A stretch of DNA of 33,264 nt. Source: a virus. The notes beneath the pieces were generated by a model. The model was given only the letters and a program-made list of their open reading frames with translations, did not search any database and was not told the DNA's origin. Shown piece by piece: positions 13,001 through 33,255 of the stretch. Both the position numbers and the translations under genes were made by a program. How positions within the stretch are numbered: the stretch's first letter is position 1; each line of letters starts with the position of its first letter. The stretch lies in the IMG/VR virus record IMGVR_UViG_3300042563_000447, positions 1 through 33,264 of that record; one strand, given 5' to 3'.

Positions 13001-15502
13001 AGGAGGCGCAGGTACAGTAGGAGGAACAGTTACTGCTGTAGTAAGCGTACCGGCTGTATTAAAATATAATGTTAACTCAGTTTGAAAAGTATTATATGCT
13101 GCTGTTGCAGCAGTTACTGCAAGTGGAGCCATATCATAAGAAGCAAAACTAGTAGTTCCTGAAGCTAAAACTGGAGTTTTTTGATATGGTACTTCAAAGT
13201 CAGGTACTGCTTGTGTATGAACTTCTTGTTTACCAAGCATATTTAATAAAGCATTTCCAATACCTACAAATACTGCTATATAAAAAGCTTCATCACTCAT
13301 TAATTTATTTTCTGGATGTTTATTAGGTACACCAAAAAAGTGTTGTGAGTTACCTTGTAAACTTCCATATATTTTTAACTCTGTTTGATTTAAAAATGGA
13401 TTTCTAAAACTTGTATCAGGTGATGTAAAAGATAATAAGTTAGTTGGTATTAATTGATTTACAGGAAGTTCATTACCTTGAGAACTTAAAACTATAGGTT
13501 TAATAAAAGGATCATTATATCTATAATCACGATCTCCAGGAGTCAAAGTATTACCTAAAGGCAAAGTACAGTTAAATGGATAGTTAGCATATAAACCTAC
13601 TCTGTTTCCTGCAGTTTGACCAAGTATATTATATGTTCTAAAATTATTAATCATTCCTTTAGCAACTATACTTTGGTTACCTTCTCTTGATCCTCTTAAT
13701 ATTTCATAACCTACAATACCTTCTATATCATTTCCATCATTATCTTTTGGAAGTATAATAGTGTCAAACTCAACTGACATTATTCTAATGAACTTAGTAC
13801 CATTAGCAGCATTTGCTCCTACTACATTAAAGTGATATGTCTCTGGAGATAATGCATTATCTGGAAATTTATGATGTCTTATTTCTTTACCACATAAATC
13901 ATACTTAGTATCTGTAGTTGCTGTCCAACAATGAGCAGTAGAATTCCACACCTCAGGTTGATCTGCTGGATAAAATTCTGTAGACTGCCAGTATCCCATT
14001 TTACCTTTTGCTAATACTTTTCCTCCATCAGGAAGTATAGGATTATTAGTTAAGTATACAACAGTTTGAGAAGCTGTATTTATAGTTTCCCAAAGTTGTG
14101 TATTATCCGCAAAACTATTTTGATCTACATAAGGAGCAATATCTTGTATTCCAAGAGGTGCATAATTTTCATTAGCTCTTCCTGGTATATGATAAGAAGC
14201 TGATTTATCACCAGTATCATAGACCCATCTTATAAAGAATGAATATACTTCATCTCTTAAGTATCCTGTATTAGATCCTCCTTTAATATAATAGTTTTCT
14301 GGATACTCTACAGACACCCATCTTGTTCTAATAAGATTTGCTAAAGGCTGATAGTTAAAATCAAATTTGGACCTAGGAGCAATTCTTAATAAGTACTGAC
14401 CAACATGGACCATTTGATCAGAAGTTTCATATACAGGATTTTGTAAAGTAATATAACTTAATGGTATTGTTTCTAATGTTTGTGCAATTTCATCAAGCAC
14501 AATTACATTTTGATTAGTAGAATAATATCCTATTTTCTTTGCTTGAACATTTTCATTTACTGATCTTACTATAACAAGTTCAAATGAATCAAAGTTTACT
14601 GTATCTAATTCTAAATTTAATAATAAAGATCCTTGTGATAAATCTCTTTCAGTAAATACAGGTTGTAAATTACTTGGTGAAAAATAATTAGTTACTTTTT
14701 GTTGTTTTATACAATAGGCTACTAAAGCAAAATAAGTTCCATTTTCTAATGTACCTGTACCAGGTGCAATTGATAACTGCACACAAGGTGTAGTTACTAA
14801 AGGAGCTAGTCTAATTGCATTACAATCTAGATGATTTGTGTCTACACATACTTCACAAATAGAACCAGGTACTGGATTACAATCTTGTACCCACTGACCT
14901 ATTGGCCATAAATATAAATCTCCTGTTGTAGGATTAATATAATTATTATAATTAGTTGGTCCTGCAATTCCTAAAGTAGAACCACCCCACTGCCATGATG
15001 GATCTGGCCACAAAGCATTATCTCCAATATTTAAATACCTATCAGGATTTAAACCATCAGACCAATATACTTGCCACTTACAGTCACCCTTCTCTCTAGT
15101 AGCTCCTGTAATTAAATTATATTTACTAAATCTTAAACAAGGAGCAGAAACAATTGGTCTATATCTACATGAGTCTTCTTCAAATAAACCTATCTCAGAG
15201 TTAATATTTTTTCCATTTAGATCATAGGCTGCTGTAAATATTATCCACTTATCAGCATAAAGATGTATAGTTCCAACAATATCTTTATCACCCAGCATAG
15301 TTTCACCACTAGTACCACAAAGATAATTTGAGTCTTCATTAGTTATTGTACCTAATGAACCTTCATCTGTATTATTAGCAATATTTCTTGCATGTGTCCA
15401 CAAACCAGATTCTACATAAGATGGATCTGTATCTTTATTAAGACCTTTTGCAAAACTATTGGTAACAATCTGAGTAGTATTTTGTATTCCCTTGTCTGCC
15501 AT
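10088..15502 (-). CDS. Giant tail protein (1804 aa), crAss-like muzzle / tail-stabilization type
   Basis: The N-terminus reads TNSFAKGLNKDTDPSYVESG (residues about 15-34) followed by HARNIANNTDEGSLGTITNE. This 'F-x-K-G-L-N-x-D-x-x-P ... N-E' pattern is typical of phage tail stabilization/nozzle proteins with a beta-propeller-like N-terminal region, and of the crAss-like muzzle family. The rest is Tyr/Asn/Pro-rich, beta-type sequence with no membrane segment. The C-terminal 250 residues contain FDILFSKEENKYRFNQFWDI and a basic FRNYLNFLFLSK segment, resembling the conserved end of that family as I recall it. At 1804 aa it is long for the family. It sits directly after two ring-type proteins and before the lytic fusion protein, as expected for a tail-tip component. 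It overlaps both neighbours by TAATG. The family call is by motif and context. Confidence 0.85.
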   Translation of the reverse strand: MADKGIQNTTQIVTNSFAKGLNKDTDPSYVESGLWTHARNIANNTDEGSLGTITNEDSNYLCGTSGETMLGDKDIVGTIHLYADKWIIFTAAYDLNGKNINSEIGLFEEDSCRYRPIVSAPCLRFSKYNLITGATREKGDCKWQVYWSDGLNPDRYLNIGDNALWPDPSWQWGGSTLGIAGPTNYNNYINPTTGDLYLWPIGQWVQDCNPVPGSICEVCVDTNHLDCNAIRLAPLVTTPCVQLSIAPGTGTLENGTYFALVAYCIKQQKVTNYFSPSNLQPVFTERDLSQGSLLLNLELDTVNFDSFELVIVRSVNENVQAKKIGYYSTNQNVIVLDEIAQTLETIPLSYITLQNPVYETSDQMVHVGQYLLRIAPRSKFDFNYQPLANLIRTRWVSVEYPENYYIKGGSNTGYLRDEVYSFFIRWVYDTGDKSASYHIPGRANENYAPLGIQDIAPYVDQNSFADNTQLWETINTASQTVVYLTNNPILPDGGKVLAKGKMGYWQSTEFYPADQPEVWNSTAHCWTATTDTKYDLCGKEIRHHKFPDNALSPETYHFNVVGANAANGTKFIRIMSVEFDTIILPKDNDGNDIEGIVGYEILRGSREGNQSIVAKGMINNFRTYNILGQTAGNRVGLYANYPFNCTLPLGNTLTPGDRDYRYNDPFIKPIVLSSQGNELPVNQLIPTNLLSFTSPDTSFRNPFLNQTELKIYGSLQGNSQHFFGVPNKHPENKLMSDEAFYIAVFVGIGNALLNMLGKQEVHTQAVPDFEVPYQKTPVLASGTTSFASYDMAPLAVTAATAAYNTFQTELTLYFNTAGTLTTAVTVPPTVPAPPVLTLEEIYEKANKAFAAAGLYSPQTLVTDNTPASMFAGVPIIGNTLSQFVMLPYYFSEGFSSTLRVIQAFLPYRQYALQSYAHGFYARFVAPSNNFRKRFSIDDGLYLTDSNQEVPDYLNNASTFERFTINNLNRTKTVFLRTSSANNTDATAGPNLIGNYVAGTLTPGFNEDNSLINLGKAVDAGLGNGMSYSNDSRFKSFLANIASHYVGLKYSVENQYGKIDNIKQVVATSCEYKFDPNSVYNPSTNPNGDIQIIITSSFCPTGQVKQKLLLPSGPIFGGDTYINRFTEKNTQLFFYNWLYNLPDGTPWNYLLYNNIPQARYWMNSQPYTTTDIQVNNLSSIITSLQPNFGTGIMPSSYYNLDNPNYDRQTDNEGSYPGFMSVKNSYFYLANSGVRDFFVESNVLVDFRTQGTFQYEQPYMPYQYTDMRQLFDINPEIITKGNFYNYNYSLSVSKFFTQYLSAGSVQGLNYDPTVAQLCFTYYPNRTLYSLYLDDQSYDDNWFIYLPLNYVQFTDRITTIKSTGMTGMLFTFQTSAPLFFQGIDTLETLAGKKVTIGDGGLFSNPPQSSSNSESSFEYGSSQSIRSVLYSPAGLFYASLNQGKLFSYGEGLKEISQNGLKWWFTLFLPYKLIKDFPDYPHTDNPVAGIGVQTLYDNKNSILYFSKKDYQLKSGIGKVGYNAVKDKFTYIGAEYSLGDPTIFDDASWTVSYDPKGQVFISYHDWHPNLSLSSKTNVYTIKDNTIWKHNDTCDDFCNYYGVQYPFEIEYPINTGQSPSVVKSFEYILECYRTSKFNCVDQFQVLDENFSQAVVYNNEQVSGYLNLNIFPKNNVTLSLDYPKLNQSNLASFDILFSKEENKYRFNQFWDITRDRGEFPTGSTYPPLGPLVPGTTVLLGNYEQEVVWNTGPNGYIKTLNANNLNYAKPEMQRKKFRNYLNFLFLSKLATDQNKDINFILKIVNSKNQASLR

Positions 15503-16527
15503 TATCTTATCCTATTACTTCTGTTATAATATCCTGTATGGCTGTCAAACATAGAATAGTATTTTCCATACATTGCTCTTCTGTTAGTCCACCACATATC
15601 TTCTAACTCTCTAAAATTTGGAGTATTAACTACACTCAGTGCATTATTTCTTGCTGCCTTTAGTCTTTGTTCAACAAGTTGCATTCTCTGTGCTACATCT
15701 TCTCCATTTAAATATAAGTTTTCAAAAATTCTTGCCTTTAATGCATACTCATAATATTCATTTAAAAGATCATGATCTGGAACTAATAAGTTTCCTTGAT
15801 CATCTTCCATCTGACCTTGATAGTTTAAATAAATTTTACATGTGTCTAGTGTAGTAAATAAAAATCCACCTTGTATCCAACCTTCATTTGGAGTATTCCA
15901 ATATAAGTTAGGACAATCACATTCTATATCTTGACTAGCTTTCATTCTTAAAGGACTAGTAAATGAATATGTTCTTGTTTCACCACTTCCTCCTACAACT
16001 TGTATAAGCTCATACTTGTCTCCTTTACAGTTCATAAATACTCTTGGTGGTATACAAGTATCACCATAAGGATTTAAAGGGTCATGAGCTACTGGTATTG
16101 GATCTACTACAGGAAAATTTAAATCACAAGCTGCAGTTTTATTACATGGATGAGAATTACATGTTCTACAGTTAACTGATATAGGAGAACATACATCTAC
16201 AGTAGATGGTACTTCTGTATAAGGTATTTCTTGAATATTGGTACCGCCTACATTTCCATAGCCAGTATTTACAACATAACTACCACAGATTAAAGCAAAA
16301 TTAAATACATAAAAGTCATCAGGTAATTTCACTCTACCATGACATACTTCTAGAATAACTTCTTTAGTTTGATTAACTCTTAGACCTAAATCATAGTTAA
16401 TTTTTTTAGTTAACTTAATAAGTTGTTGAGGCTCTATCATGTTCTCTAAAGCAAAAGTATTTAAATCTACTGTTACATCTTCTAAGAGACTGTCAAAAGT
16501 GCGGTATTTTATTGTGTAATTATACAT
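15502..16527 (-). CDS. Ring/neck (tail connector) protein, crAss-like (341 aa)
   Basis: An N-terminal helical part (residues 1-65, with IEPQQLIKLTKKINYDLGLR) leads into a beta-rich centre with a Cys-rich loop (SVNCRTCNSHPCNKTAACD, and CDCPN later). The C-terminal helical arm has LLNEYYEYALKARIFENLYL, NGEDVAQRMQLVEQRLKAAR and ELEDMWWTNRRAMYGKYYSMF. The C-terminal 'YYEYALKxRIxENLYxNGE' pattern is one I associate with conserved tail/ring proteins of crAss-like phages; this is recall, not a search. Inferred role: one of the stacked rings between portal and muzzle. It overlaps both flanking genes by a TAATG stop/start, which would help fix the ratio of ring and tail proteins. Confidence 0.82.
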   Translation of the reverse strand: MYNYTIKYRTFDSLLEDVTVDLNTFALENMIEPQQLIKLTKKINYDLGLRVNQTKEVILEVCHGRVKLPDDFYVFNFALICGSYVVNTGYGNVGGTNIQEIPYTEVPSTVDVCSPISVNCRTCNSHPCNKTAACDLNFPVVDPIPVAHDPLNPYGDTCIPPRVFMNCKGDKYELIQVVGGSGETRTYSFTSPLRMKASQDIECDCPNLYWNTPNEGWIQGGFLFTTLDTCKIYLNYQGQMEDDQGNLLVPDHDLLNEYYEYALKARIFENLYLNGEDVAQRMQLVEQRLKAARNNALSVVNTPNFRELEDMWWTNRRAMYGKYYSMFDSHTGYYNRSNRIR

Positions 16528-17186
16528 TATCTAATTGGATTTTGACCATCATCTGCACCATCAGATGGAATAGATATAGCCATAGTTAATTCTTTAACAA
16601 CAAATTGTTCTACTTCAGAAAATAAATATTCTGGAAGTGATAATGCTTTGTTTTGTGCAATGTCACATTGCTCACTACATGGATCTGTTACTCCTTGGAA
16701 TATTGCTTCCATTCTTATTGCATCCCAGTCTATGTTAGGACAAAAAATATAACCATCTAAATACCAAAAGTATTTTCTTGTATTATATTTAAAGGTTGTT
16801 GTTTTAGTCATTGACACCCATGTTCCTGGATCTGTTCTAAACATTTCTATAGAACCATCTATAGAAGATGTAGTACGTATAATAGGACCCATTGCTCCAT
16901 CTAGAATAGTAGGAAGCTTTTCTTTAGATCTTTTGAAGTAACATCCTGAGTAAACACCAAGACATCCTGCTTCTACTTTATCTACATCTATAAGTTCAAT
17001 ATAAGGAAGTACTTGAAAGATAGAACTTATCTTCATTAACTTAAATTGATTGTCTTCTCTTTTAAGTAATGTTTGGCCATATTTAATTAGAGAAGAGTAA
17101 ATAACTCTATCAGTTAAAAAAGGATCTTCTTTAACAGCTTTTAGAGTATTTCTAACTCTTGATATTGCTTCTCCAATTGTTGTCAT
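16527..17186 (-). CDS. Ring/neck (tail connector) protein, crAss-like (219 aa)
   Basis: The protein starts TTIGEAISRVRNTLKAVKED, followed by FLTDRVIYSSLIKYGQTLLK and LPYIELIDVDKVEAG. I recognise this N-terminal half as a family conserved next to the tail genes of crAss-like phages. The helical first 60 residues precede a beta-type middle (IRTTSSIDGS, TTTFKYNTRKYFWYLDGY) and a helical C-terminus (LPEYLFSEVEQFVVKELTMAI). Size and order fit a dodecameric neck-ring subunit, but oligomeric state cannot be read from sequence. Its ATG overlaps the upstream gene's TGA (ATGA), and its TAA overlaps the next ATG (TAATG). No metal site or enzyme motif is evident. Confidence 0.82.
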   Translation of the reverse strand: MTTIGEAISRVRNTLKAVKEDPFLTDRVIYSSLIKYGQTLLKREDNQFKLMKISSIFQVLPYIELIDVDKVEAGCLGVYSGCYFKRSKEKLPTILDGAMGPIIRTTSSIDGSIEMFRTDPGTWVSMTKTTTFKYNTRKYFWYLDGYIFCPNIDWDAIRMEAIFQGVTDPCSEQCDIAQNKALSLPEYLFSEVEQFVVKELTMAISIPSDGADDGQNPIR

Positions 17187-17764
17187 AGGTCAAATTCATT
17201 ATAATGTTCTAAGTCTTTTTTTTGTTTTTCATTTATAGCATGCTGAAAAACATGTTTAGTATATGTAAGTTTTAATTTTTCTGTTGGATTAACCACAACA
17301 TATATATTCCAATTTTCAGGATATGTTTTTGCTACTGATCTTTTAAAATCCCTACAAGCTACAAAACTCCAAAACTCTCTGTTTTTCATTTTGTGTTTTA
17401 AAGCATGACTTGTAAAAAAGATTTTAGCTAGTTTGCCATCTGTCTCCCAATTTTTATTAGATACAGCTACACCATATTTATTAGATTTTGCAAAGTCTAT
17501 ATTCTCTTTCTTTGGACTTTGACATGTGCCAATAAATAACCAACCAATTTGTTCTGGTAACAGAACTCCATCCCTTGTATCTATAACTGTCTGATATAAA
17601 GTGTTATTAAAATATTTAACTATTTTTCTTATCTCTACATTTTCCAAGTGTTTATACTTAGGATATTTTTTTTTAAAACTTTCAAAGAACTCCTTGTTCA
17701 TTACTGTATGCACTGAAGGTCTATACCTTGGCGCAGTTAAATCTGGTTTTTTAAATTCTCTCAT
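17183..17764 (-). CDS. Conserved phage neck-region protein (193 aa), function unassigned
   Basis: The sequence is Lys-rich and begins REFKKPDLTAPRYRPSVHTV, with FFESFKKKYP, TRDGVLLPEQIGWLFIGTCQ, NIDFAKSNKYG, NWETDGKLAKIFF and AKTYPENWNIYVVV further on. I recall this family (RDGV-LPEQ-G, NIDF, NWE-D, YPENW) from phages of the same broad group, where it precedes the ring genes, but I cannot assign a biochemical role. It is the first gene of the overlapping five-gene run ending with the lytic fusion protein. It has its own putative promoter (exact 22-nt repeat) 7 nt upstream and a terminator before that. The stop is TGA, overlapping the next start, which argues against TGA recoding. No signal peptide or membrane helix is visible. 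Confidence 0.8.
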   Translation of the reverse strand: MREFKKPDLTAPRYRPSVHTVMNKEFFESFKKKYPKYKHLENVEIRKIVKYFNNTLYQTVIDTRDGVLLPEQIGWLFIGTCQSPKKENIDFAKSNKYGVAVSNKNWETDGKLAKIFFTSHALKHKMKNREFWSFVACRDFKRSVAKTYPENWNIYVVVNPTEKLKLTYTKHVFQHAINEKQKKDLEHYNEFDL

Positions 17765-23726: not shown

Positions 23727-23765
23727 AAAAAAAGGGAGAGGAGTTTAGAACTCTTCTCCCCCTTT
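23727..23765 (-). terminator. Intrinsic terminator after the 549-aa structural gene
   Basis: On the minus strand AAAGGGGGAGAAGAGTT pairs imperfectly with AACTCCTCTCCCTTT around a CTA loop (one mismatch, a short bulge) and runs into seven Ts. It lies just downstream of the 549-aa stop codon and before the 186-aa gene. Its form matches the terminator after the major capsid gene. Confidence 0.82.
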
Positions 23766-23791: not shown

Positions 23792-25441
23792 TTAGTAACA
23801 AGAAACTACATTGTATGGATTGTACTTAGGCAATACAGGGAAGTTAACTGGAACAACACATACTGTATCACAAGAGTAACTATCAATCTCACATACACCA
23901 CAAGAACTTAACCATCCAGCAGTATCTCCAGCAAATGTACTAAGATTTGTTAAAGAGAATACCTCTAATAAATACTGATCAGCATCAAATGTACCAGAAG
24001 GATTATAATTTCTTGGAACATTGTGTTGTAAAATATATCTGTAGTATAATGCACTTCTATCAATAGAACTAATGATTTGGTTTCCTTGAGTAATCTCACG
24101 GATCCTAAAGTCAGTTGCTAAGAAGTTTTGTCTGTAAGATTCAGATAATGTAAGTTCTCTTACAACTGTTTCTCCTAAACCTTGAACTTGTAAACCTTGA
24201 CATTCTGTTACTACACAAATAGCATTAAATGTACATGGATCACCATTATAATCTACTTCAGAAGCATATAATTTAACTGGCTCTTTTTCATAGAAGTCAG
24301 AAATTTGGAATGTACAATCTCCAAACTTAGTGTCAACATATGCACCATTTAAGATTAAACCTGCACATGCACCTTCTACGTGTCCTGGAGATACATAATT
24401 ATTCCAAGTATCAGCACCATTTGCAGCTAAGAAAGAAGCAGGAGTTCCTGGAGCATACCAAAGAGTTCCATCCTCTGCTTGTACAACAACTTGTACAAAA
24501 GGACTTACAATTGGACGCTTAGTAATTGCATCTGCCCATAAAATCATTACTGTAGTTGAGTCAACTGCTACTGGAGCAATAGATCCTTCTGGACAACATC
24601 CAGTATAAGCATCACCTGTCCAATATGCATTGTGATTTAAAAATCTTAATGCAGGAGAACCTTTAACATCAATACGCAAAGAGTAAGTCTCACCACAGTA
24701 AAATTCTTTACAACAGTTAGTTGTAATACCACATCCTGTTTGTGCATGAGATGCTGTAACTGTATTAATAGTTACTGTTGCATCACCACCACCACCAACT
24801 AAAGTTACAATATTACCAGCAGTATATCCTTTTCCTGGATTAATAACAGTAACTGTTAAAACATTACCACCACCATCGGCAGTAAAAGAAACAACTAATC
24901 CTTCACCTGTACCACCAGTTGTAGTAGTAACACCTGTAAGAGCATAACCTGAACCATTAACAAGAATAGTTTCAGTTAATACACCACCACCTGCAGTCCA
25001 ATATGTTGAACCTACATGGATTACATTGTTTTGTGGCTCACATGGATCTACTGAATAAAATCTAGATACATACTTAGGGTTAACCATTTTAGACTTGTTA
25101 GTCTCTTGGTAACCACCAGTTAAAGGACCGATCTTGTCATTAGAATAAATTGCTGAACCAGCAAGATATAAATTACAACAAGGTGCAAAACCTTCATCAT
25201 TGATATCTACTGATAAATTTGTTTTTGGATTAAACCATCCAATATAACCATCTGTAGTTGCAGATGCAGCATTTGCAGATAACTGATTAAGTGAATAAGT
25301 TGGTAAACCATTAGTAGTTAAATAACCTTCAGATGTAGTAGCTGTTGTAGTGCTTCCATCAGGTAATGTAATTACTGTACCGATTTGTGTCCCGCCTGTG
25401 GCAAGAAATGCTTTCTTAAAAGCATGATTAAAATAACTCAT
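23792..25441 (-). CDS. Abundant-type virion structural protein with beta-solenoid-like insert (549 aa)
   Basis: The protein begins SYFNHAFKKAFLATGGTQIG. It contains PKYVSRFYSVDPCEPQNNV (122-140) and, at about 149-228, an inserted Gly/Thr/Val-rich segment with two turns of a GSGY/GKGY repeat (NGSGYALTGVTTTTGGTG, NPGKGYTAGNIVTLVGGGG) typical of extended beta-repeat modules in phage proteins. A C-terminal region follows with EFYCGETYSLRIDVKG and an ending rich in Cys (CGVCEIDSYSCDTVC). I do not recognise a named family; a head fibre, decoration or tail protein fits the context. Strong expression is suggested by an isolated terminator, its own AT-rich upstream element and less AT-biased codons than neighbours. 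The leader AAAACAAAAACAAAATG is Bacteroidota-like. No enzyme motif is seen. Confidence 0.8.
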   Translation of the reverse strand: MSYFNHAFKKAFLATGGTQIGTVITLPDGSTTTATTSEGYLTTNGLPTYSLNQLSANAASATTDGYIGWFNPKTNLSVDINDEGFAPCCNLYLAGSAIYSNDKIGPLTGGYQETNKSKMVNPKYVSRFYSVDPCEPQNNVIHVGSTYWTAGGGVLTETILVNGSGYALTGVTTTTGGTGEGLVVSFTADGGGNVLTVTVINPGKGYTAGNIVTLVGGGGDATVTINTVTASHAQTGCGITTNCCKEFYCGETYSLRIDVKGSPALRFLNHNAYWTGDAYTGCCPEGSIAPVAVDSTTVMILWADAITKRPIVSPFVQVVVQAEDGTLWYAPGTPASFLAANGADTWNNYVSPGHVEGACAGLILNGAYVDTKFGDCTFQISDFYEKEPVKLYASEVDYNGDPCTFNAICVVTECQGLQVQGLGETVVRELTLSESYRQNFLATDFRIREITQGNQIISSIDRSALYYRYILQHNVPRNYNPSGTFDADQYLLEVFSLTNLSTFAGDTAGWLSSCGVCEIDSYSCDTVCVVPVNFPVLPKYNPYNVVSCY

Positions 25442-25460
25442 TTTGTTTTTGTTTTTTAGT

Positions 25461-25490
25461 TAATAATATAATATACTATAATATAATAAA
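25461..25490 (-). promoter_or_regulatory. Putative promoter before the 549-aa structural gene
   Basis: The 88-nt gap after the ferritin gene is nearly pure A/T. On the minus strand it contains TTATAGTATATTATATTA, related to the TTTTAGTATATTTAATA element before the ring operon. Its position before a likely abundant structural protein with a dedicated terminator supports promoter function. Confidence 0.4.
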
Positions 25491-25529
25491 AATAATTAAG
25501 ATAACAAAATTATTTTTACTATAAATACT

Positions 25530-26144
25530 TTAGCCAGCCATTACTGTATCTAAAAGTCTTAATGCTATTTTGTCTGTACCAAAAGCTTCTAATTGATCCA
25601 TCCAATTTTGCATTTTATCATGTTCTTCAACTTGTTCTTTAAGATAAGCTAAACATAATTCATATAACATATGGTCACCATCTGATAATGCATGATTTGC
25701 CATATCTTTTATTTGGTTGCTTACTTCAATCTCATGATCAAATGAAAGTTTAACAATACTAGGAAGACCAGTAAAATTTTGTTTTGGTTGATCTAATCTA
25801 GGTGTTACAGGTTGTATACCAAAAGAAAGTAAATAAGTTCTTGCAATATCTGCATGTTTCATTTCTTCATCTGAGTATTTTCTCCATAAAGCAGCTGCTC
25901 CTTGATAACCTTTATTGTTCAACCACATAGACATTGACATATAAATTCTAGCAGAATACTCTTCTTGTTGTACTCTATAATTTAAATGACTTGCACATGA
26001 ATTATCAACTAAAGGATTCATTGTTTTTGTTGATGGAATTTCTGTTGTAGAACCAGCACTTGGAGCAATAACATTCATTATTTCATTTTCCAGTCCTACT
26101 ACTTTAGTTTCTGGTCTTTTTAACATTCTAGGTTTTTCCATCAT
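25530..26144 (-). CDS. Phage-encoded ferritin with N-terminal extension (204 aa)
   Basis: Residues about 50-190 align with bacterial FtnA-type ferritins: QQEEYSARIYMSMSMWL, GAAALWRKYSDEEMKHADIA, FDHEIEVSNQIKDMANHALS and LAYLKEQVEEHDKMQNWMDQ. Ligands of the di-iron ferroxidase centre appear intact: Glu61, Glu94 and His97 (site A), Glu138 and Gln171 (site B), with Glu170 and Glu174 matching the third-site region and Tyr68 matching the conserved Tyr near the centre. Known family role: oxidise Fe(II) and store it in a 24-subunit shell. The first 45-50 residues (MMEKPRMLKRPET ...) are extra and could tether it elsewhere. It lies 8 nt after a probable neck gene and before the 549-aa structural gene, so it is expressed late with virion proteins. 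Whether it assembles into the virion or acts in the cell is unknown. The fold call is firm; the biology is inference. Confidence 0.93.
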   Translation of the reverse strand: MMEKPRMLKRPETKVVGLENEIMNVIAPSAGSTTEIPSTKTMNPLVDNSCASHLNYRVQQEEYSARIYMSMSMWLNNKGYQGAAALWRKYSDEEMKHADIARTYLLSFGIQPVTPRLDQPKQNFTGLPSIVKLSFDHEIEVSNQIKDMANHALSDGDHMLYELCLAYLKEQVEEHDKMQNWMDQLEAFGTDKIALRLLDTVMAG

Positions 26145-26152
26145 TTAATTAT

Positions 26153-26854
26153 TTAGTTATTACGTTCTGCTCCATCTGATCCTCTAGAGAATTGATTTCC
26201 AGATTCTATATCTCCTGCTATAATGCTTATAGCTTCATCAATTATTAATTCTATAATATCATCTTTAAATTCACATTCTATATTTACAGGAGATACTAAA
26301 GTTGTATAAGGATCTACACAATCTTTAATTTGTATTTTTCTTGGTTGTCTATAGTATGCTAAGTCTACTGTTTGAATATTAAATTCATTATTAGTATATA
26401 TATTAATGTGATCATTTATTAAAGTAGCAAATGTTTCTGCCCACTCAAAACTTGGTTGTTTTAATTTATCTCTTAGAAGTTGATTAAGATTTCCTTCTTC
26501 TGCAAGATATACTGTCATTCTTCTTTTATCACAACAATCTTTTTGAGCAAATACATCTACTCTTTTCCATTGTAAATACTCAGTAGGAAGTGTTACAAAA
26601 GTATAATCTCCTTTATCAGTTAAATCAGTTAATGGAGCTTTAACAAGTAAAACCTGAAGATCATCTTTTCTTCTGGTAGATTGCTCATCACCTTCTTTAA
26701 CTAGATTAATTCCATGTAACTGTCTTCTAGCCCATTCTACTTGAGCTTTATTAAATGCTTCTACTACTTGCCAACATTCAATGTTGTCATAATCCTGAGA
26801 ATCAAGCTTGTTGATTCTCTGTTTCATCTTTACAGTAATAGTACTATTTAACAT
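26153..26854 (-). CDS. Probable neck/head-completion structural protein (233 aa)
   Basis: The N-terminal half is helical (MKQRINKLDSQDYDNIECWQ, VEAFNKAQVEWARRQLHGIN, followed by the basic STRRKDDLQVLLV). The centre is beta-type (DYTFVTLPTEYLQWKRVDVF, VDLAYYRQPRKIQIKD), and a helical C-terminus (IIELIIDEAISIIAGDIESG) ends polar. This 'helical start, VxAFNKAQ-EW-RRQ' layout is one I associate with a ring/head-tail connector protein of crAss-like phages, by recall. It starts 2 nt after the 49-aa gene's stop and is followed after 8 nt by the ferritin gene, so these are co-expressed. No enzyme motif is seen. Confidence 0.77.
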   Translation of the reverse strand: MLNSTITVKMKQRINKLDSQDYDNIECWQVVEAFNKAQVEWARRQLHGINLVKEGDEQSTRRKDDLQVLLVKAPLTDLTDKGDYTFVTLPTEYLQWKRVDVFAQKDCCDKRRMTVYLAEEGNLNQLLRDKLKQPSFEWAETFATLINDHINIYTNNEFNIQTVDLAYYRQPRKIQIKDCVDPYTTLVSPVNIECEFKDDIIELIIDEAISIIAGDIESGNQFSRGSDGAERNN

Positions 26855-26856
26855 AA

Positions 26857-27006
26857 TTATTTCTTTTTAGCCATTGCTTTAAATGTTCTTGCTAGTGCAG
26901 CTCTCTTAGGAGTACATGTAGGCTTAGACATAGGAGTACAAAATCCTTTATGTTTTGGATTCACAGCTTTTTGAATCCACTTTTTGTCTACTTTTTTAGT
27001 AGCCAC
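26857..27006 (-). CDS. Small basic Cys-containing protein (49 aa), GTG start
   Basis: A GTG at 27006-27004 shares its first G with the TAG stop of the 118-aa gene (TAGTG) and opens 49 codons to TAA at 26859-26857. The protein contains KKWIQKAVNPKHKGFC, TPMSKPTCTPKRAALA and RTFKAMAKKK. 'KKWIQKA ... C ... C-P-+-ALA+TFKxMAK' is a pattern I recall in small proteins near the capsid genes of many phages, so a real gene is likely. An AAGAAGAAATAG stretch precedes the GTG, and translation is probably coupled. It is highly basic with two cysteines. The role is unknown: a small head or DNA-binding protein is possible. Confidence 0.8.
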   Translation of the reverse strand: MATKKVDKKWIQKAVNPKHKGFCTPMSKPTCTPKRAALARTFKAMAKKK

Positions 27007-27362
27007 TATTTCTTCTTTTTAGCTCCAGCAATTCTATCAGCAAAAGTTGCTTTATTATATGGAGGAGCTAATGCTGCAAACTTAGCTTTTTTAGCAGAAC
27101 CACCCGTTTGAAACTTTGGTCTTTCAGAAACACATCCACCTGTAGCAGATCTTACTGTTCCTGGAGGGCATGAATGCTTTACTGGACGACTACTAATACT
27201 ACCACCTTTTTTAGCAAAACCATATTGTCCAGAAGTACCTAAGTTTTCTTGAGGAATACCATACATTTGAACTTTAGCTTTTGCTAAAACTGGTTTAGGT
27301 GTAGTACCACCATTAGCCATTTTAACTTTACCACCACATTTTGCACACATTAACTTTGCCAT
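27006..27362 (-). CDS. Lys-rich GG-motif protein with CxxC (118 aa)
   Basis: An N-terminal CAKCGG (6-11) gives a half zinc site, followed by MANGG (15-19), AKKGG (50-54) and FQTGG (84-88), then a Lys-rich tail (AGAKKKK). A central CPPGTVRSATGGC could pair two cysteines. It is basic and low in complexity, with no membrane segment. The MxxGG/FxxGG motifs are the same as in the 392-aa neighbour and in the large proteins near the left end. It ends TAG, overlapping the GTG of the next gene. It is probably a small virion-internal or assembly protein; this is inference. An 8-bp hairpin sits just upstream. Confidence 0.78.
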   Translation of the reverse strand: MAKLMCAKCGGKVKMANGGTTPKPVLAKAKVQMYGIPQENLGTSGQYGFAKKGGSISSRPVKHSCPPGTVRSATGGCVSERPKFQTGGSAKKAKFAALAPPYNKATFADRIAGAKKKK

Positions 27363-27379
27363 AACTATAAGTTTAAAAT

Positions 27380-27399
27380 ATCCCTAGTTTCCTAGGGAT
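27380..27399 (-). terminator. GAAA-loop hairpin between the 392-aa and 118-aa genes
   Basis: ATCCCTAG and CTAGGGAT form a perfect 8-bp stem; on the minus strand the loop is GAAA, a stable tetraloop. It is followed by ATTTTAAACTTATAG, a weak T-run. It may terminate part of the transcript of the 392-aa gene or mark an RNA processing site. Confidence 0.6.
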
Positions 27400-27409
27400 T
27401 ATTATTTAA

Positions 27410-28588
27410 TTATTTCTTTTTAGATCCACCTTTCTTATAACCTAATACAGTTTTTGCTACAGATTTAGCTTTAGAATATGCAGTACCTTTACCTGTATAG
27501 TTAGGATATCTTTTTTGTAACATGTCATCTGCAGACTTACCTGCCATTCCTGCACCTTTATAAAGTCCAGTACCTATTGGATTAGCAATAGCAGCTGCTG
27601 TTTTAGCAATTGGTTTAACATTTCTAGCTACACTGTTACCTATTTTTTTTGAACCAGTTACTATATCATTTACACCAGAAGCTACACCACCACCTTTTTG
27701 CATAACAGGTCTATTTTTTTTAACTTCTCTTCCACCAGAAGGACTTACTGATTTACCAAGTTTTAAATAAATACCTTTATTATTACCAGTACCTTTTGCA
27801 TCTTTACTAGATAAATTATAACTCATTGCACCTTTACCTTTTTCTACTTTTCTAGCAGCTGCTTTTGCTGTAATAGGAACACCTCCACCTTTTTGGAATC
27901 CTGGACGGTCATTAGATCCTTTAGCATCTTGTACTGCTTTAATACCTTGACCAACAGTTGAAGCTACATTAGCTACATCACCTGTAATCTTAGATACTTT
28001 ATCATAAGTAGAAGGTTCAGTACCAGCTTTGATACGTTCTGTTTTTGCATTTATTGCAGCAAGTTTTTGTTCTTGCTTAGCACTTTTCTTTTGATCTTTG
28101 TATGAAGGTGTGCCACCATCACCCATCTTCTTAGTCATACCACCACTTTGCATTTTCTTAGCCATAAGAGGTTTTGGACTAGCAGGACGAAGAGCTTTAT
28201 TCATTGCAGTTCTAGTCTTATCTGCATAAGGTTTGATTGCTTTATTTGCTGCAGCACCTTTAGCTCTTAAATTATCAGAACCAAGCATATAGTCTAATCC
28301 TCTTTGCATCTTACCTGTGATTGAATTATCAACTGATTTTGTAGAACCACCTTTTTGCATCTTAGCCACAGAGGATTTTGGTTTAATAGGTGCAAGAGTT
28401 TTATTCATTGCAGTTCTTGTTTTATCAGCATATGGCTTAATTGCTTTATTAGCAGCTGTTCCTGCTGCTCTTAGCTTATTAGAACCTAGAACGTAATCTA
28501 GACCTCTTTGTATTTTACCAGTAATAGAATTATCAACTTTCTTTTTAGTTGTTGATCCACCTTTTTGCATTTTTTTAATAGTTGCCAT
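27410..28588 (-). CDS. Lys-rich protein with tandem duplication and GG motifs (392 aa)
   Basis: Residues 7-76 and 77-145 are near-identical repeats, each opening MQKGGST and containing VDNSITGK, QRGLDY, LGS and ANKAIKPYADKTRTAMNK. A third copy begins at 146 (MQSGGMTKK) but diverges. Further GG motifs are FQKGGGVP, MQKGGGVAS and YKKGGSKKK at the end. The protein is strongly basic (Lys-rich), Ala/Gly-rich and probably largely disordered, with no enzyme motif. By composition it could bind DNA inside the capsid or coat the inner shell; nothing in the sequence proves it. It follows the 338-aa gene after 29 nt, and the hairpin at 27380-27399 lies just past its stop. Confidence 0.82.
   Translation of the reverse strand: MATIKKMQKGGSTTKKKVDNSITGKIQRGLDYVLGSNKLRAAGTAANKAIKPYADKTRTAMNKTLAPIKPKSSVAKMQKGGSTKSVDNSITGKMQRGLDYMLGSDNLRAKGAAANKAIKPYADKTRTAMNKALRPASPKPLMAKKMQSGGMTKKMGDGGTPSYKDQKKSAKQEQKLAAINAKTERIKAGTEPSTYDKVSKITGDVANVASTVGQGIKAVQDAKGSNDRPGFQKGGGVPITAKAAARKVEKGKGAMSYNLSSKDAKGTGNNKGIYLKLGKSVSPSGGREVKKNRPVMQKGGGVASGVNDIVTGSKKIGNSVARNVKPIAKTAAAIANPIGTGLYKGAGMAGKSADDMLQKRYPNYTGKGTAYSKAKSVAKTVLGYKKGGSKKK
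28154..28570 (-). repeat. Tandem 70-codon duplication inside the 392-aa gene
   Basis: Two adjacent units (28361-28570 and 28154-28360) encode near-identical 69-70-residue segments beginning MQKGG. The DNA differs at many third positions, so the duplication is not recent or has been kept under protein-level selection. Confidence 0.85.
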
Positions 28589-28617: not shown

Positions 28618-29634
28618 TTAAGAATTCCATAATTTTTCAACAGCCATATTAAGATCTTTAAGAATGTCTTCATTTAAAGGATTCTTCATGTACTCAACTA
28701 CATCTGATACATTTCTACCAAGTAAAGCATTTGACTTTGCATGATAAATATAACCATCTGGCTTATTAATAATATACTTAAAAAATACGGAATCTCTAAC
28801 AATTGATTTAATTTTTAGTGTTTCCATATCCATTGTTGTTGCTTCAATAAAGGATTTTGCTGCTCTCTCTTTATTGCTCTCACCACCTTCACCATTAATG
28901 TACATGTCCATATTCTCATATATAACATCATTTGGTGTTGACTTTCTATATTGTGTACTATTTAAATCTACAACTTTTGCTATGTAGAATAACTTAGTAC
29001 TGTTCTTATCAAATAATTTTTGAAGTTCAGCTAAAGCTTTATTTCTTAATTTCTTATATTCAGTTCTAACCATTACAGTCTCTTCTTCTTTATCTAAGTA
29101 AAACTTAGGAGCTACTGCTCTAGACCGTGCATCATCAAAACTTTTTGCTACTATTGAAAATCCTCCTGCTTCAATAGCCATTAATTTAATCCTATCATAA
29201 GGATCTTTTGAATCTAAAAATAAAGGATCATTTCCACAAGCTATAACTATTTTATTCCAGAATTCTTTATTGTCTGGTCTTAATAATTGAACTTTATTCC
29301 AAAATTCTTTATCATCAATATCTATTACATTAGCAGCTAAATCCTTTTCAAGGTCTATAATTGTTAATCTAATTTCTTTTATTCTTGCTTCTCTAACTTC
29401 TGTAGGTAATAATTTAATCTCAGGTGCAAATTCATTTAAACCTGTTATGTATCTTATTACTCCATTGTTTTCTAGACAAGCTAGTTGTTCATAATGTTTC
29501 ACTCCATCATAGAGTGACATACCATAATTCTCCAGCCCCATATTAGTTGCTGCATTGTCAAAGAACGGTCTAACTGCAATTGTTGTTTTTTTGTTGTTAG
29601 CCTTGTTGGTTTCCACCATTGTGAAATTTTCCAT
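28618..29634 (-). CDS. Conserved-looking phage protein after the capsid gene (338 aa), unassigned
   Basis: The sequence is mixed alpha/beta and soluble: TTIAVRPFFDNAATNMGLEN, HYEQLACLENNGVIRYITGL, LLPTEVREARIKEIRLTIID, and later AIEAGGFSIVAKSFDDARSR, KKLRNKALAELQKLF and DVVEYMKNP. A short internal repeat (DKEFWNKVQLL, NKEFWNKIVIA) occurs near residues 107-130. I do not recognise a family or catalytic motif. It is the first gene after the capsid terminator and has a TTTAGTATA element and an A-rich AACCAAACAAAATG leader, so it probably begins a new transcript. Position suggests a head or head-completion role; that is inference only. Confidence 0.75.
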   Translation of the reverse strand: MENFTMVETNKANNKKTTIAVRPFFDNAATNMGLENYGMSLYDGVKHYEQLACLENNGVIRYITGLNEFAPEIKLLPTEVREARIKEIRLTIIDLEKDLAANVIDIDDKEFWNKVQLLRPDNKEFWNKIVIACGNDPLFLDSKDPYDRIKLMAIEAGGFSIVAKSFDDARSRAVAPKFYLDKEEETVMVRTEYKKLRNKALAELQKLFDKNSTKLFYIAKVVDLNSTQYRKSTPNDVIYENMDMYINGEGGESNKERAAKSFIEATTMDMETLKIKSIVRDSVFFKYIINKPDGYIYHAKSNALLGRNVSDVVEYMKNPLNEDILKDLNMAVEKLWNS

Positions 29635-29713: not shown

Positions 29714-31333
29714 TTAGAATGATCCACCAGTTACAGGATTTCTCATAACTATTTTCAAGACCTTGGTAGGATCTTTTACCCAGATAGCTGGCATAGTTTG
29801 AGACATCATAACACGGTAACCATTAAACTGTCCAGAAGACTGGAATCCTTGGCTACGGCCCATATAGTCCATAGTTCCATTTTGGTACCACCACTTTAAC
29901 TGATTGTCCCAAGATAATTTTAACATAAAGATATTATCATTAGTATTATCTGTGATATCAAAGATAATGAATGAATAAGAACTTAATGGGAAACCATCTA
30001 TAATAGGATTCTCAATGTCATTTGTGTGAACATTGTCAAATGCTGGATTAAGTACAAACTTAACATTTGCCAAGAAAGGAATAACATAAGAAGTATAAGA
30101 GAAACCAAAGTTCAAGTCCATTCCTTTACCAGTGATTGCACCAATATCAGCAGCTTGAATTAATAAACCTGAAGAGATAGCCTCAGTTTTAATAGCTTCA
30201 TTTACCATTCTCATTCCACCCATACCTGTTTGAACTACTAAAGAGCGCTTAGGATCTGGACCTTGGAATTCAACCTTACCATTAAAGAAGTTATAGATTT
30301 CTCCACGGAACAAGTCAAGTGTAAAGTTATTCTTGTTATATACTCTTTTGAAAGAGTTATCCAACTGCTTCCATAAACCTACTGACAATCTTACATCATC
30401 TGGTCCATCTTGGCGAACTCTACCTCCATGACCCCACATTAAGTAAGTCTCAATGTCTGTTGCTACCTTAGAAAGGTGAGCAGCTTCCATGTTAGTTAAG
30501 AATGTTCTAGAAAGATCTCCGTTATCAAATGCTTTTTTAACTTTATCTTTACCCATTACCTTAACCATATCTTCTAAAGATGTGATAGAAGGATCTAAGT
30601 TAGACTTGTCAAATGTTCTCCAGATCTCAGTTACAGGAACTGTACCATCTGCATTCATTCCACCTTTGATCATTAAGTCTGCTCTTGAAGATACAGAATA
30701 ATGTACGTGAGCTTCTGCTCCACCAACAAAGTTATAGAATTCACGGAATCCTGTGTTAGTGATAATGTCAGAGAATCTCTCACCATATTCACCTCTTGCA
30801 GAACCTTTTCTGAATACTTTAGTACCATTAGCAAGATACTTGTTATCTAAGTATTTGTAGTTATCATTGTTAACTAACTGTACTGTATAGATAAAGCCAT
30901 CACCCATTGGAAGAATATCTTCTGCAGTGATGTACATCTCACAACCATTATATTTGTCATATGTGATGATATCACCATGTCCAAATTCTCTCTTGTTAAT
31001 TTTGATGCGGAAAGTTGTACCATCTACACCTTTAAACTCATTTTGTCCTTCAATGTCTTCAATGATGTATGGAAGATCTACAGAGACAGGAGTCTGCCAC
31101 TTATACTCTCCACGAGCATTATCAACATTAATTACATTTTTACCACCAAAAGATGATAATTGGTAAAGAGGCATTTCAACTCTTTGAGCCATTGCCCAAA
31201 GGTCTACTGGACCTAAGTCCATTGGATCTGCATCTTTCAGCATGTTCACCAAGTGGTATGAATCCACATGAGAACTTGCCGCATAGGCTGTATCCCTTAG
31301 GAATATGCCATTGTTCATTACTGGAGTTGCCAT
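29714..31333 (-). CDS. Major capsid protein, crAss-like (539 aa)
   Basis: The call rests on sequence recall and context. The protein begins ATPVMNNGIFLRDTAYAAS, with HLVNMLKDADPMDLGPVDLW, QLSSFGGKNVINVDNARGEY, FGHGDIITYDKYNGCEMY, AEAHVHYSVSSRADLMIKGG and a C-terminus ending IVMRNPVTGGSF. Length, order after an acidic scaffold-like gene, a strong private terminator and visibly less AT-biased codons (CGT/CGC arginines, CCA, GGT) fit the most abundant virion protein. The HK97-type fold expected for such capsids cannot be seen from primary sequence alone. No maturation-protease site is obvious, and the N-terminus has no long acidic delta region, so scaffolding would be supplied by the separate upstream gene. 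The leader AAACAAATATAAAAATG is A-rich. Confidence 0.85.
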   Translation of the reverse strand: MATPVMNNGIFLRDTAYAASSHVDSYHLVNMLKDADPMDLGPVDLWAMAQRVEMPLYQLSSFGGKNVINVDNARGEYKWQTPVSVDLPYIIEDIEGQNEFKGVDGTTFRIKINKREFGHGDIITYDKYNGCEMYITAEDILPMGDGFIYTVQLVNNDNYKYLDNKYLANGTKVFRKGSARGEYGERFSDIITNTGFREFYNFVGGAEAHVHYSVSSRADLMIKGGMNADGTVPVTEIWRTFDKSNLDPSITSLEDMVKVMGKDKVKKAFDNGDLSRTFLTNMEAAHLSKVATDIETYLMWGHGGRVRQDGPDDVRLSVGLWKQLDNSFKRVYNKNNFTLDLFRGEIYNFFNGKVEFQGPDPKRSLVVQTGMGGMRMVNEAIKTEAISSGLLIQAADIGAITGKGMDLNFGFSYTSYVIPFLANVKFVLNPAFDNVHTNDIENPIIDGFPLSSYSFIIFDITDNTNDNIFMLKLSWDNQLKWWYQNGTMDYMGRSQGFQSSGQFNGYRVMMSQTMPAIWVKDPTKVLKIVMRNPVTGGSF

Positions 31334-32712: not shown

Positions 32713-33255
32713 CTATTTTTCTTTTCCTTTAGTTCCTTTTTTATCAAATCTATTCTTATTTTCTCTAGCTATTTGTAGTTGCTTATCTGCTATACTTTGT
32801 TGAACATTAAGTTTTTCTCTTTCTATATCCATCTTCTGTGACTGCCTAGAGTTTTCATTCATTTGTTTTTCTCTCTGTAAATCAGTTTGTTGCTGGTATT
32901 GGTCAGACTGTCTAATGTTTTTCATCTCATCTTGGTAGTCAGATACTTCATTTTTATTAATATCCTGCATAGCACCAAAGCCTGCAGATCTAATTTCTGC
33001 AACAAGGATATCTCTTTGTCTATCTTTCTCTTTCTCCATTGCTTGTGAATCAAGCTTCATCTTCTCTATATCTTGTTGAGCTTTAGACTGTTCTTGCTGC
33101 ATTTGCTGTGCTGACTGCTGTTCTTGTTGCTTCTCTTGTTGTACTCTTTGTTCTGATCCTTTAAGTACATTGTTAAGTTCAGAAATAGAGTCTGATTGTA
33201 CTATCTTACCTAGATCATAAATAGAAGCTCCTGTAGTATTATTCTGCATAGCCAT
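32713..33255 (-). CDS. Gln-rich coiled-coil protein near the portal/capsid block (180 aa)
   Basis: Residues about 35-170 are almost entirely Gln/Glu/Lys/Met-rich helix with heptad character (EQRVQQEKQQEQQSAQQMQQ, DIEKMKLDSQAMEKEKDRQR, KMDIEREKLNVQQSIADKQL), so a long coiled coil is expected. The N-terminus (TTGASIYDLGKIVQSDSISE) is the only part of ordinary composition, and the C-terminus is very basic (KKGTKGKEK). ATG at 33255 was chosen because of the A-rich AAAACAAATG leader; the frame is open for the 9 remaining bases to the window edge, so an upstream start is not excluded. Position just before the scaffold and capsid genes suggests a head-assembly or portal-associated role. This is inference; the family is not recognised. 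Confidence 0.72.
   Translation of the reverse strand: MAMQNNTTGASIYDLGKIVQSDSISELNNVLKGSEQRVQQEKQQEQQSAQQMQQEQSKAQQDIEKMKLDSQAMEKEKDRQRDILVAEIRSAGFGAMQDINKNEVSDYQDEMKNIRQSDQYQQQTDLQREKQMNENSRQSQKMDIEREKLNVQQSIADKQLQIARENKNRFDKKGTKGKEK

Follow-up and report, generated by a model that had tools for sequence, protein, structure and literature searches.

Why should a phage carry a ferritin gene among the genes that build its particle? The question is raised by a virus record in IMG/VR, 33,264 bases in length (IMGVR_UViG_3300042563_000447), the whole of which was analysed and is here called the window. A first-pass annotation had placed a full-length ferritin gene inside the structural operon of this virus, and had taken its late-operon position as an argument for a link with the virion. 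We present an analysis of the gene, of its relatives and of the place which they occupy. All genes for which coordinates are given lie on the - strand.

The ferritin gene and the virion module

The ORF at 25530–26144 matches the Pfam family Ferritin [PF00210; 2.2e-24], over the cut-off, as well as solved bacterial FtnA structures including Vibrio 3qz3 [6e-23]. Its product has 204 amino acids, or 203 if translation begins at the second ATG (26141), which may be the case since relatives begin ATGGAA. The AlphaFold2 model (overall pLDDT 84) contains helices at residues 48–77, 81–107, 127–155, 158–188 and 192–203, which AlphaFold2 and Foldseek resolve as a four-helix bundle plus a short E helix. 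This core, helices A–E (residues 48–204; 25533–26003), delimited by AlphaFold2, Foldseek and residue conservation, is predicted to superimpose on 3qz3 with an rmsd of 1.2 Å and a TM score by target of 0.92 (Foldseek), and the structure prediction proposed in the first-pass annotation as a check thus returned the expected bundle. The core ferroxidase residues are E61, E94, H97, E138, Q171 and E174, which we take to be the counterparts of E. coli FtnA E17, E50, H53, E94, Q127 and E130, site C. The ligands originally named (E61, E94, H97, E138 and Q171) were correct and do not vary among the 49 distinct ferritins from the same genomic position (slot ferritins); the same is true of Y68, E93, E170, E173 and E174. 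The core is under purifying selection, with a median dN/dS of about 0.12 (NG86), a rough figure, the median dS being high.

Profile matches, ligands and predicted fold confirm that this is a real, full-length FtnA-type ferritin with all of its ferroxidase residues. It shares with the bacterial non-haem FtnA proteins (PF00210; Vibrio 3qz3, E. coli 1eum) the five-helix fold and the ferroxidase residues, including the site C glutamates; it is about 25–30% identical to solved ferritins and 46–49% identical to the nearest cellular ones found. It differs from them in being phage-encoded within a virion module, and in possessing some 45 additional N-terminal residues, noted in the first-pass annotation and disordered in the AlphaFold2 model, which bear a tag specific to this genomic position.

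The major capsid protein of the window (MCP; 29714–31333) is of the Crassvirales type [PF23898 Crass_capsid, 1.9e-30; PHROG 11589, major head protein]. The C-terminal part of the portal (32713–33255), cut by the window end, was recognized through PHROG 6547 [portal; 8e-5] and full-length portal homologues in relatives. Downstream of the MCP gene, g338 (28618–29634) occupies the place of crAss001 gp33, an assignment which is mainly positional, the hhalign match to gp33 being weak (18.5%). The upstream flank of the ferritin gene (26153–26854) specifies a homologue of the tail-barrel ring proteins gp34/gp35 (R3–R5), with an hhalign probability of 91.4 [9e-7] to crAss001 gp34 and 90.4 to gp35, and a match to PHROG 29507 (virion structural protein). 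Its downstream flank, g549 (23792–25441), is a conserved right neighbour with weak PHROG matches to virion structural and head-closure families; it is probably a virion protein, and hhalign gave no match to crAss001 proteins. Other ring homologues are R2 (16527–17186; hhalign 96% to gp40) and R1 (15502–16527; 88% to gp43), so that the window contains several paralogous ring genes, and an IHF-like protein (17183–17764; hhalign 33%, 4.5e-4) lies in the place of crAss001 gp42. The order MCP, gp33, rings and tail genes is that of the Crassvirales, and by its genes the phage is Crassvirales-like. The neighbourhood of virion genes reported in the first-pass annotation was therefore sound, the gene upstream of the ferritin being a ring protein.

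In crAss001, gp36 follows the ring gene gp35 directly with nothing between them, which means that the ferritin gene has been added to the crAss framework at one defined position. The structure of crAss001 revealed that the rings make up the tail barrel, and that capsid and tail store cargo proteins (PMC10172136). The ring-gene framework is common to crAss001 and the window phage; the known cargo of the former consists of ejection and RNA-polymerase proteins (PMC10172136). The order MCP, g338-like gene, ring gene and g186-like gene is also found in Leptolyngbya phage Lbo-JY46 (PP438436.1), where no ferritin or Dps-like match was obtained between these genes. This cyanophage has a named host, a crAss-type capsid protein with 27% identity and proteins annotated mostly as hypothetical; it is a possible culturable outgroup.

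Other features of the module deserve mention. Between g338 and the ring gene (27006–28588) lie the genes for two proteins rich in lysine and glycine, in one of which KMQKGG-type motifs are repeated; the number of such proteins detected differs among relatives. The AT-rich intergenic stretch before g549 (25442–25529, - strand) is similar to that of the closest Dps-type relatives; since such a short stretch is present also in loci without a gene at this place, g549 may have its own promoter. Between g549 and g186 lies a terminator-like hairpin of 12 pairs followed by a T-run on the + strand (23734–23760).

An exchangeable slot between the ring gene and g549

An initial IMG/VR scan for ferritin matched 28 contigs, and a profile scan identified 152 stretches encoding a relative of the window ferritin. 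In ferritin-bearing relatives the gene is nearly always located between the ring gene and g549. Relatives retrieved through the capsid protein are mostly without ferritin, and possess at exactly that place a protein of 149–172 residues. Among the 111 distinct ring sequences of the MCP-anchored loci listed, the interval held a Dps-like protein (DUF5856) in 91, a ferritin in 12, both in tandem in one, nothing in seven and any other gene in none; clustering of the loci listed at 90% left 78, 11, one and five for Dps-like, ferritin, both and empty, respectively. These frequencies depend upon the contig content of IMG/VR and upon the pattern-based retrieval of the loci listed, up to 80 per scan. 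The ring–g549 junction is a dedicated slot for proteins of the ferritin superfamily. The expectation that relatives would have the same gene at the same locus thus held in that slot ferritins were found, and failed for the closest relatives, which have the Dps-like protein instead.

Whole records tell the same story: eight ferritin genomes have one PF00210 gene each and no DUF5856, six Dps-type genomes have one DUF5856 gene each and no ferritin over the cut-off, and three empty-slot records have neither (the records used are near-complete and may be fragments). A tree of capsid and g338 proteins, in which ferritin loci are over-represented because many were retrieved through ferritin itself, requires the slot to have changed its state at least 20 times; the window's two closest relatives there (97%) have a Dps-type slot. 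The genes neighbouring the slot co-vary with phage lineage. That seven of the 111 listed relatives have an empty slot indicates that its function is dispensable for assembly, which tells against a required part of the virion shell, a shell part having been one suggestion of the first-pass annotation, and fits a protective accessory. Six empty-slot loci were inspected, and their gaps showed no remnant of the tag.

The alternative occupant has a DUF5856 match together with weak matches to PF00210. Its profile matches Dps/HP-NAP structures in the PDB [5e-5], and the top Foldseek matches are nearly all Dps, with modest E-values of 1e-3 to 1e-2. Residues H47, H50, H62, D77 and E81 are conserved in 95 of 95 slot Dps-like proteins, and the Dps ferroxidase ligands among them (H50, H62, D77, E81) align with HP-NAP. 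By predicted fold and ligands, the slot alternative is Dps-like. It belongs with the Dps mini-ferritins and with the phage DUF5856 family (PHROG 858, “starvation-inducible transcriptional regulator”), and is set apart from other DUF5856 proteins in that it bears the tag and linker of the phage slot. That the ferritin and Dps-like profiles might be homologous over the whole fold was considered and rejected: in the profile–profile comparison with hhalign the tag was the sole alignable part, and the two proteins are thus related at the superfamily level only.

In annotated phages DUF5856/PHROG 858 looks Dps-like in fold and ligands, is mostly named hypothetical or transcriptional regulator, and has no slot described; in the T4-like phages JSE and RB49 the gene adjoins rI. 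The depositors of phiR1-37 annotated the DUF5856 protein g280 as a phage structural protein, and this is the only direct hint of presence in a virion. Dps-like genes are known in Lactobacillus phages and the Gratiaviridae, which thus also encode protection proteins of the ferritin superfamily (PMC6669764, PMC8008677). In the accessible portions of these papers the Lactobacillus phage genes adjoin DNA metabolism genes, unlike the slot genes described here, and no FtnA-type ferritin, exchangeable slot or shared tag is reported.

The N-terminal tag and its distribution

The window ferritin begins MMEKPRMLKR (26115–26144), and its Dps-type relatives begin MEKPRMLKR; DNA identity, hhalign and counts all identify this tag as common to the slot Dps-like proteins. 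Behind it lies a disordered linker (residues 11–47; 26004–26114), mostly of low pLDDT and variable in length and sequence. Nearly all of residues 1–30 have pLDDT values below 50, and confidence climbs only near residue 45. When the window is compared with the related locus L088 at the DNA level, the two are alike up to the end of the ring gene, and the 26 nt which begin with the start codon and cover the tag are identical; past the tag, similarity is lost until the intergenic region before g549. Since identity stops just after the tag, the protein body was swapped behind a retained 5’ end.

An LKR-type tag is present in 38 of 51 slot ferritins and 77 of 96 slot Dps-like proteins; it is found in none of 10 phage copies outside the slot and in two of 58 cellular ferritins. 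Its slot-specificity relative to other phage ferritins is significant (Fisher p 2.6e-4). The codons beneath it vary synonymously, which argues for selection at the protein level. Other flavours, such as MQKIxRP, occur in both protein families within their lineages; in the locus with a tandem arrangement (L058), the ferritin and the Dps-like protein have a common, different tag, MQKI[VP]RP. Tag flavour tracks phage lineage across the two families (12 of 2000 permutations, p ~0.006), the statistic being the tag similarity of each ferritin to its nearest Dps-type relative; exchange behind a retained 5’ end would alone yield some of this covariation. No other nearby virion protein has the tag, a lone additional regex match being a spurious ORF. 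Judged from these alignments and counts, this is a short, degenerate tag, tied to the slot and to phage lineage, not to protein family.

Related ferritins of other Crassvirales-like lineages adjoin the portal gene or sit upstream of a terminase-sized gene. Near the portal, ferritin and DUF5856 genes lie side by side in varying order in L026–L029 and L067, and ferritin is without a DUF5856 neighbour in L025; the location upstream of a terminase-sized gene is that of L044, L061 and L062. The ferritins at both of these locations are without the N-terminal tag, and ferritin use therefore does not strictly require it. In the tree, the phage ferritins cluster separately from most Bacteroidota ferritins, and the nearest confident cellular ferritins are chromosomal genes of Flavobacteriaceae, in a gene cluster which in Aureibaculum also contains Dps. 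Because several branches of the tree are long, the exact sister group is provisional. In a single genome-contig scan the matches were ferritin relatives only. Phage-type ferritins are also present on short contigs (L165, L171) binned in a Tissierellales and a Sulfuricurvum MAG; these are probably phage contigs in the bins.

Function of the slot proteins

Ferritin and Dps-type proteins both oxidise Fe(II) and store it, in cages of different size, so that it is the common chemistry which is likely to have been selected; that the two have replaced each other repeatedly at a single site, behind a single tag, is an indication that selection has favoured this chemistry at a tagged location. The simplest reading of the tag, given its distribution, would be that it docks the protein to a phage component; it may alternatively be a tail that binds DNA, or a leader which recombination has retained. 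The tag would be exposed many times over on the outer surface of the cage, and might be expected to attach it to a partner encoded by the phage, most likely one that belongs to the particle or takes part in its assembly, such as the capsid interior, the ring barrel or g549. The docked cage would oxidise Fe(II) using O2 or H2O2 and store the mineral, and would thus limit the harm done by Fenton chemistry to phage DNA or to the proteins of the virion late in infection, and possibly also within the particle. We give an even chance to this proposal, that the slot ferritin is an active cage, docked by its tag, for iron/oxygen protection within the virion module. The wider generalization, that Crassvirales-like virions carry docked ferroxidase cages, a ferritin or a Dps-type protein being loaded into or onto the particle through its N-terminal peptide to shield the packaged DNA from iron and peroxide, on an encapsulin-like principle but in a phage that carries a genome, is put forward tentatively, as something we would not yet bet on.

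A comparable architecture is known from encapsulins, which load ferritin-like cargo via short targeting peptides, usually C-terminal (PMC11202242, PMC8346489). There, as in the tagged slot protein, a ferritin-superfamily protein, a flexible linker and a short peptide are combined with an HK97-type shell system. The Family 1 targeting-peptide consensus, SDGSLGIGSLKRS (PMC8346489), ends in xLKR-like letters, a resemblance to the phage tag that we regard as a lead only. Encapsulin shells are genome-free, whereas the capsid gene nearby belongs to a phage morphogenesis module and encodes an MCP of Crassvirales type; the common tag is N-terminal, and the operon specifies no genome-free HK97-fold encapsulin shell. 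With an N-terminal tag and a phage capsid as the shell, this is not an encapsulin system. By analogy, the slot system may nevertheless work like encapsulin loading.

What else could account for the slot? A late auxiliary protein might act in the host cytoplasm, buffering iron and peroxide as host metabolism fails, with no link to the virion and with the tag serving as a basic, DNA-binding tail or as a leader kept by recombination. The slot ferritins have intact ferroxidase residues, as such a protein would, and the tag has a basic character. Dps proteins, that of E. coli for instance, are known to bind DNA through N-terminal tails. The nearest cellular homologue clusters with Dps in one genome, and the slot may be empty, both of which would suit a cytoplasmic role. 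So would the known occurrence of phage Dps genes outside structural operons (PMC6669764, PMC8008677). Yet the specific residues of the tag and its lineage flavours across two families exceed what charge would need, copies outside the slot are without it, and the position between the ring gene and g549 has been retained through at least 20 exchanges. We consider a purely cytoplasmic role somewhat doubtful, while giving it appreciable weight. An assembly chimera, or the chance insertion of a bacterial ferritin, could be suspected from the absence of ferritin in the closest relatives (97%); this is refuted by the finding of the same gene in the same slot on dozens of independent contigs. The phage ferritins, moreover, form a group of their own, the closest cellular ferritins being those of Flavobacteriaceae, and their core is under purifying selection, so that we attach practically no probability to an artefact of this kind.

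Two roles within the virion other than protection must also be weighed. The “Ferrojan horse” hypothesis, raised in the first-pass annotation, would have ferritin iron in the particle exploit siderophore receptors or feed the new host, and is attractive insofar as ferritin stores iron and the gene lies within the tail/head module. Nothing found here points to iron delivery. The iron of ferritin is a caged mineral, unlike a siderophore-type ligand, and most of the listed relatives have a Dps-type protein in place of a ferritin store, while some have nothing there. The class I ribonucleotide reductase small subunit (PF00268) was absent from 21 phage records, which leaves a supply of iron to a phage ribonucleotide reductase unsupported and removes one phage-encoded consumer of iron. 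We therefore think iron delivery very improbable. Recruitment of the ferritin fold as a purely structural part, without iron chemistry, would explain why the gene adjoins those for the ring protein and g549; it would not explain why the ferroxidase residues are invariant (49/49) and the Dps ligands likewise (95/95). Nor would cages of 24 and 12 subunits, as in the known members, replace one another structurally, and the slot can be empty; a structural role without iron chemistry is, if anything, a shade less probable still than iron delivery.

No account of ferritin in the Crassvirales, no report of a ferritin–Dps exchange slot or of a shared tag, and no paper on DUF5856 was found in the literature searched. 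The link with the virion proposed from gene position has been strengthened by the exchangeable slot, the Dps-like alternative and the common, slot-specific tag. Ferritin-superfamily genes of phages have hitherto been read as stray metabolic genes. A fixed and repeatedly swapped slot with a shared tag suggests, on comparative grounds, that control of iron or oxygen damage forms part of the phage particle or of the way in which it is assembled, and that a widespread group of phages keeps it at a defined place within the particle-building module. The parts can be named and are testable: the tag, the linker, the cage, the flanking ring gene and g549. The Dps-like protein with the same tag provides an internal control, and the empty-slot relatives a natural negative control. 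Should the cage indeed enter virions by means of the tag, phage particles would be linked to encapsulin biology.
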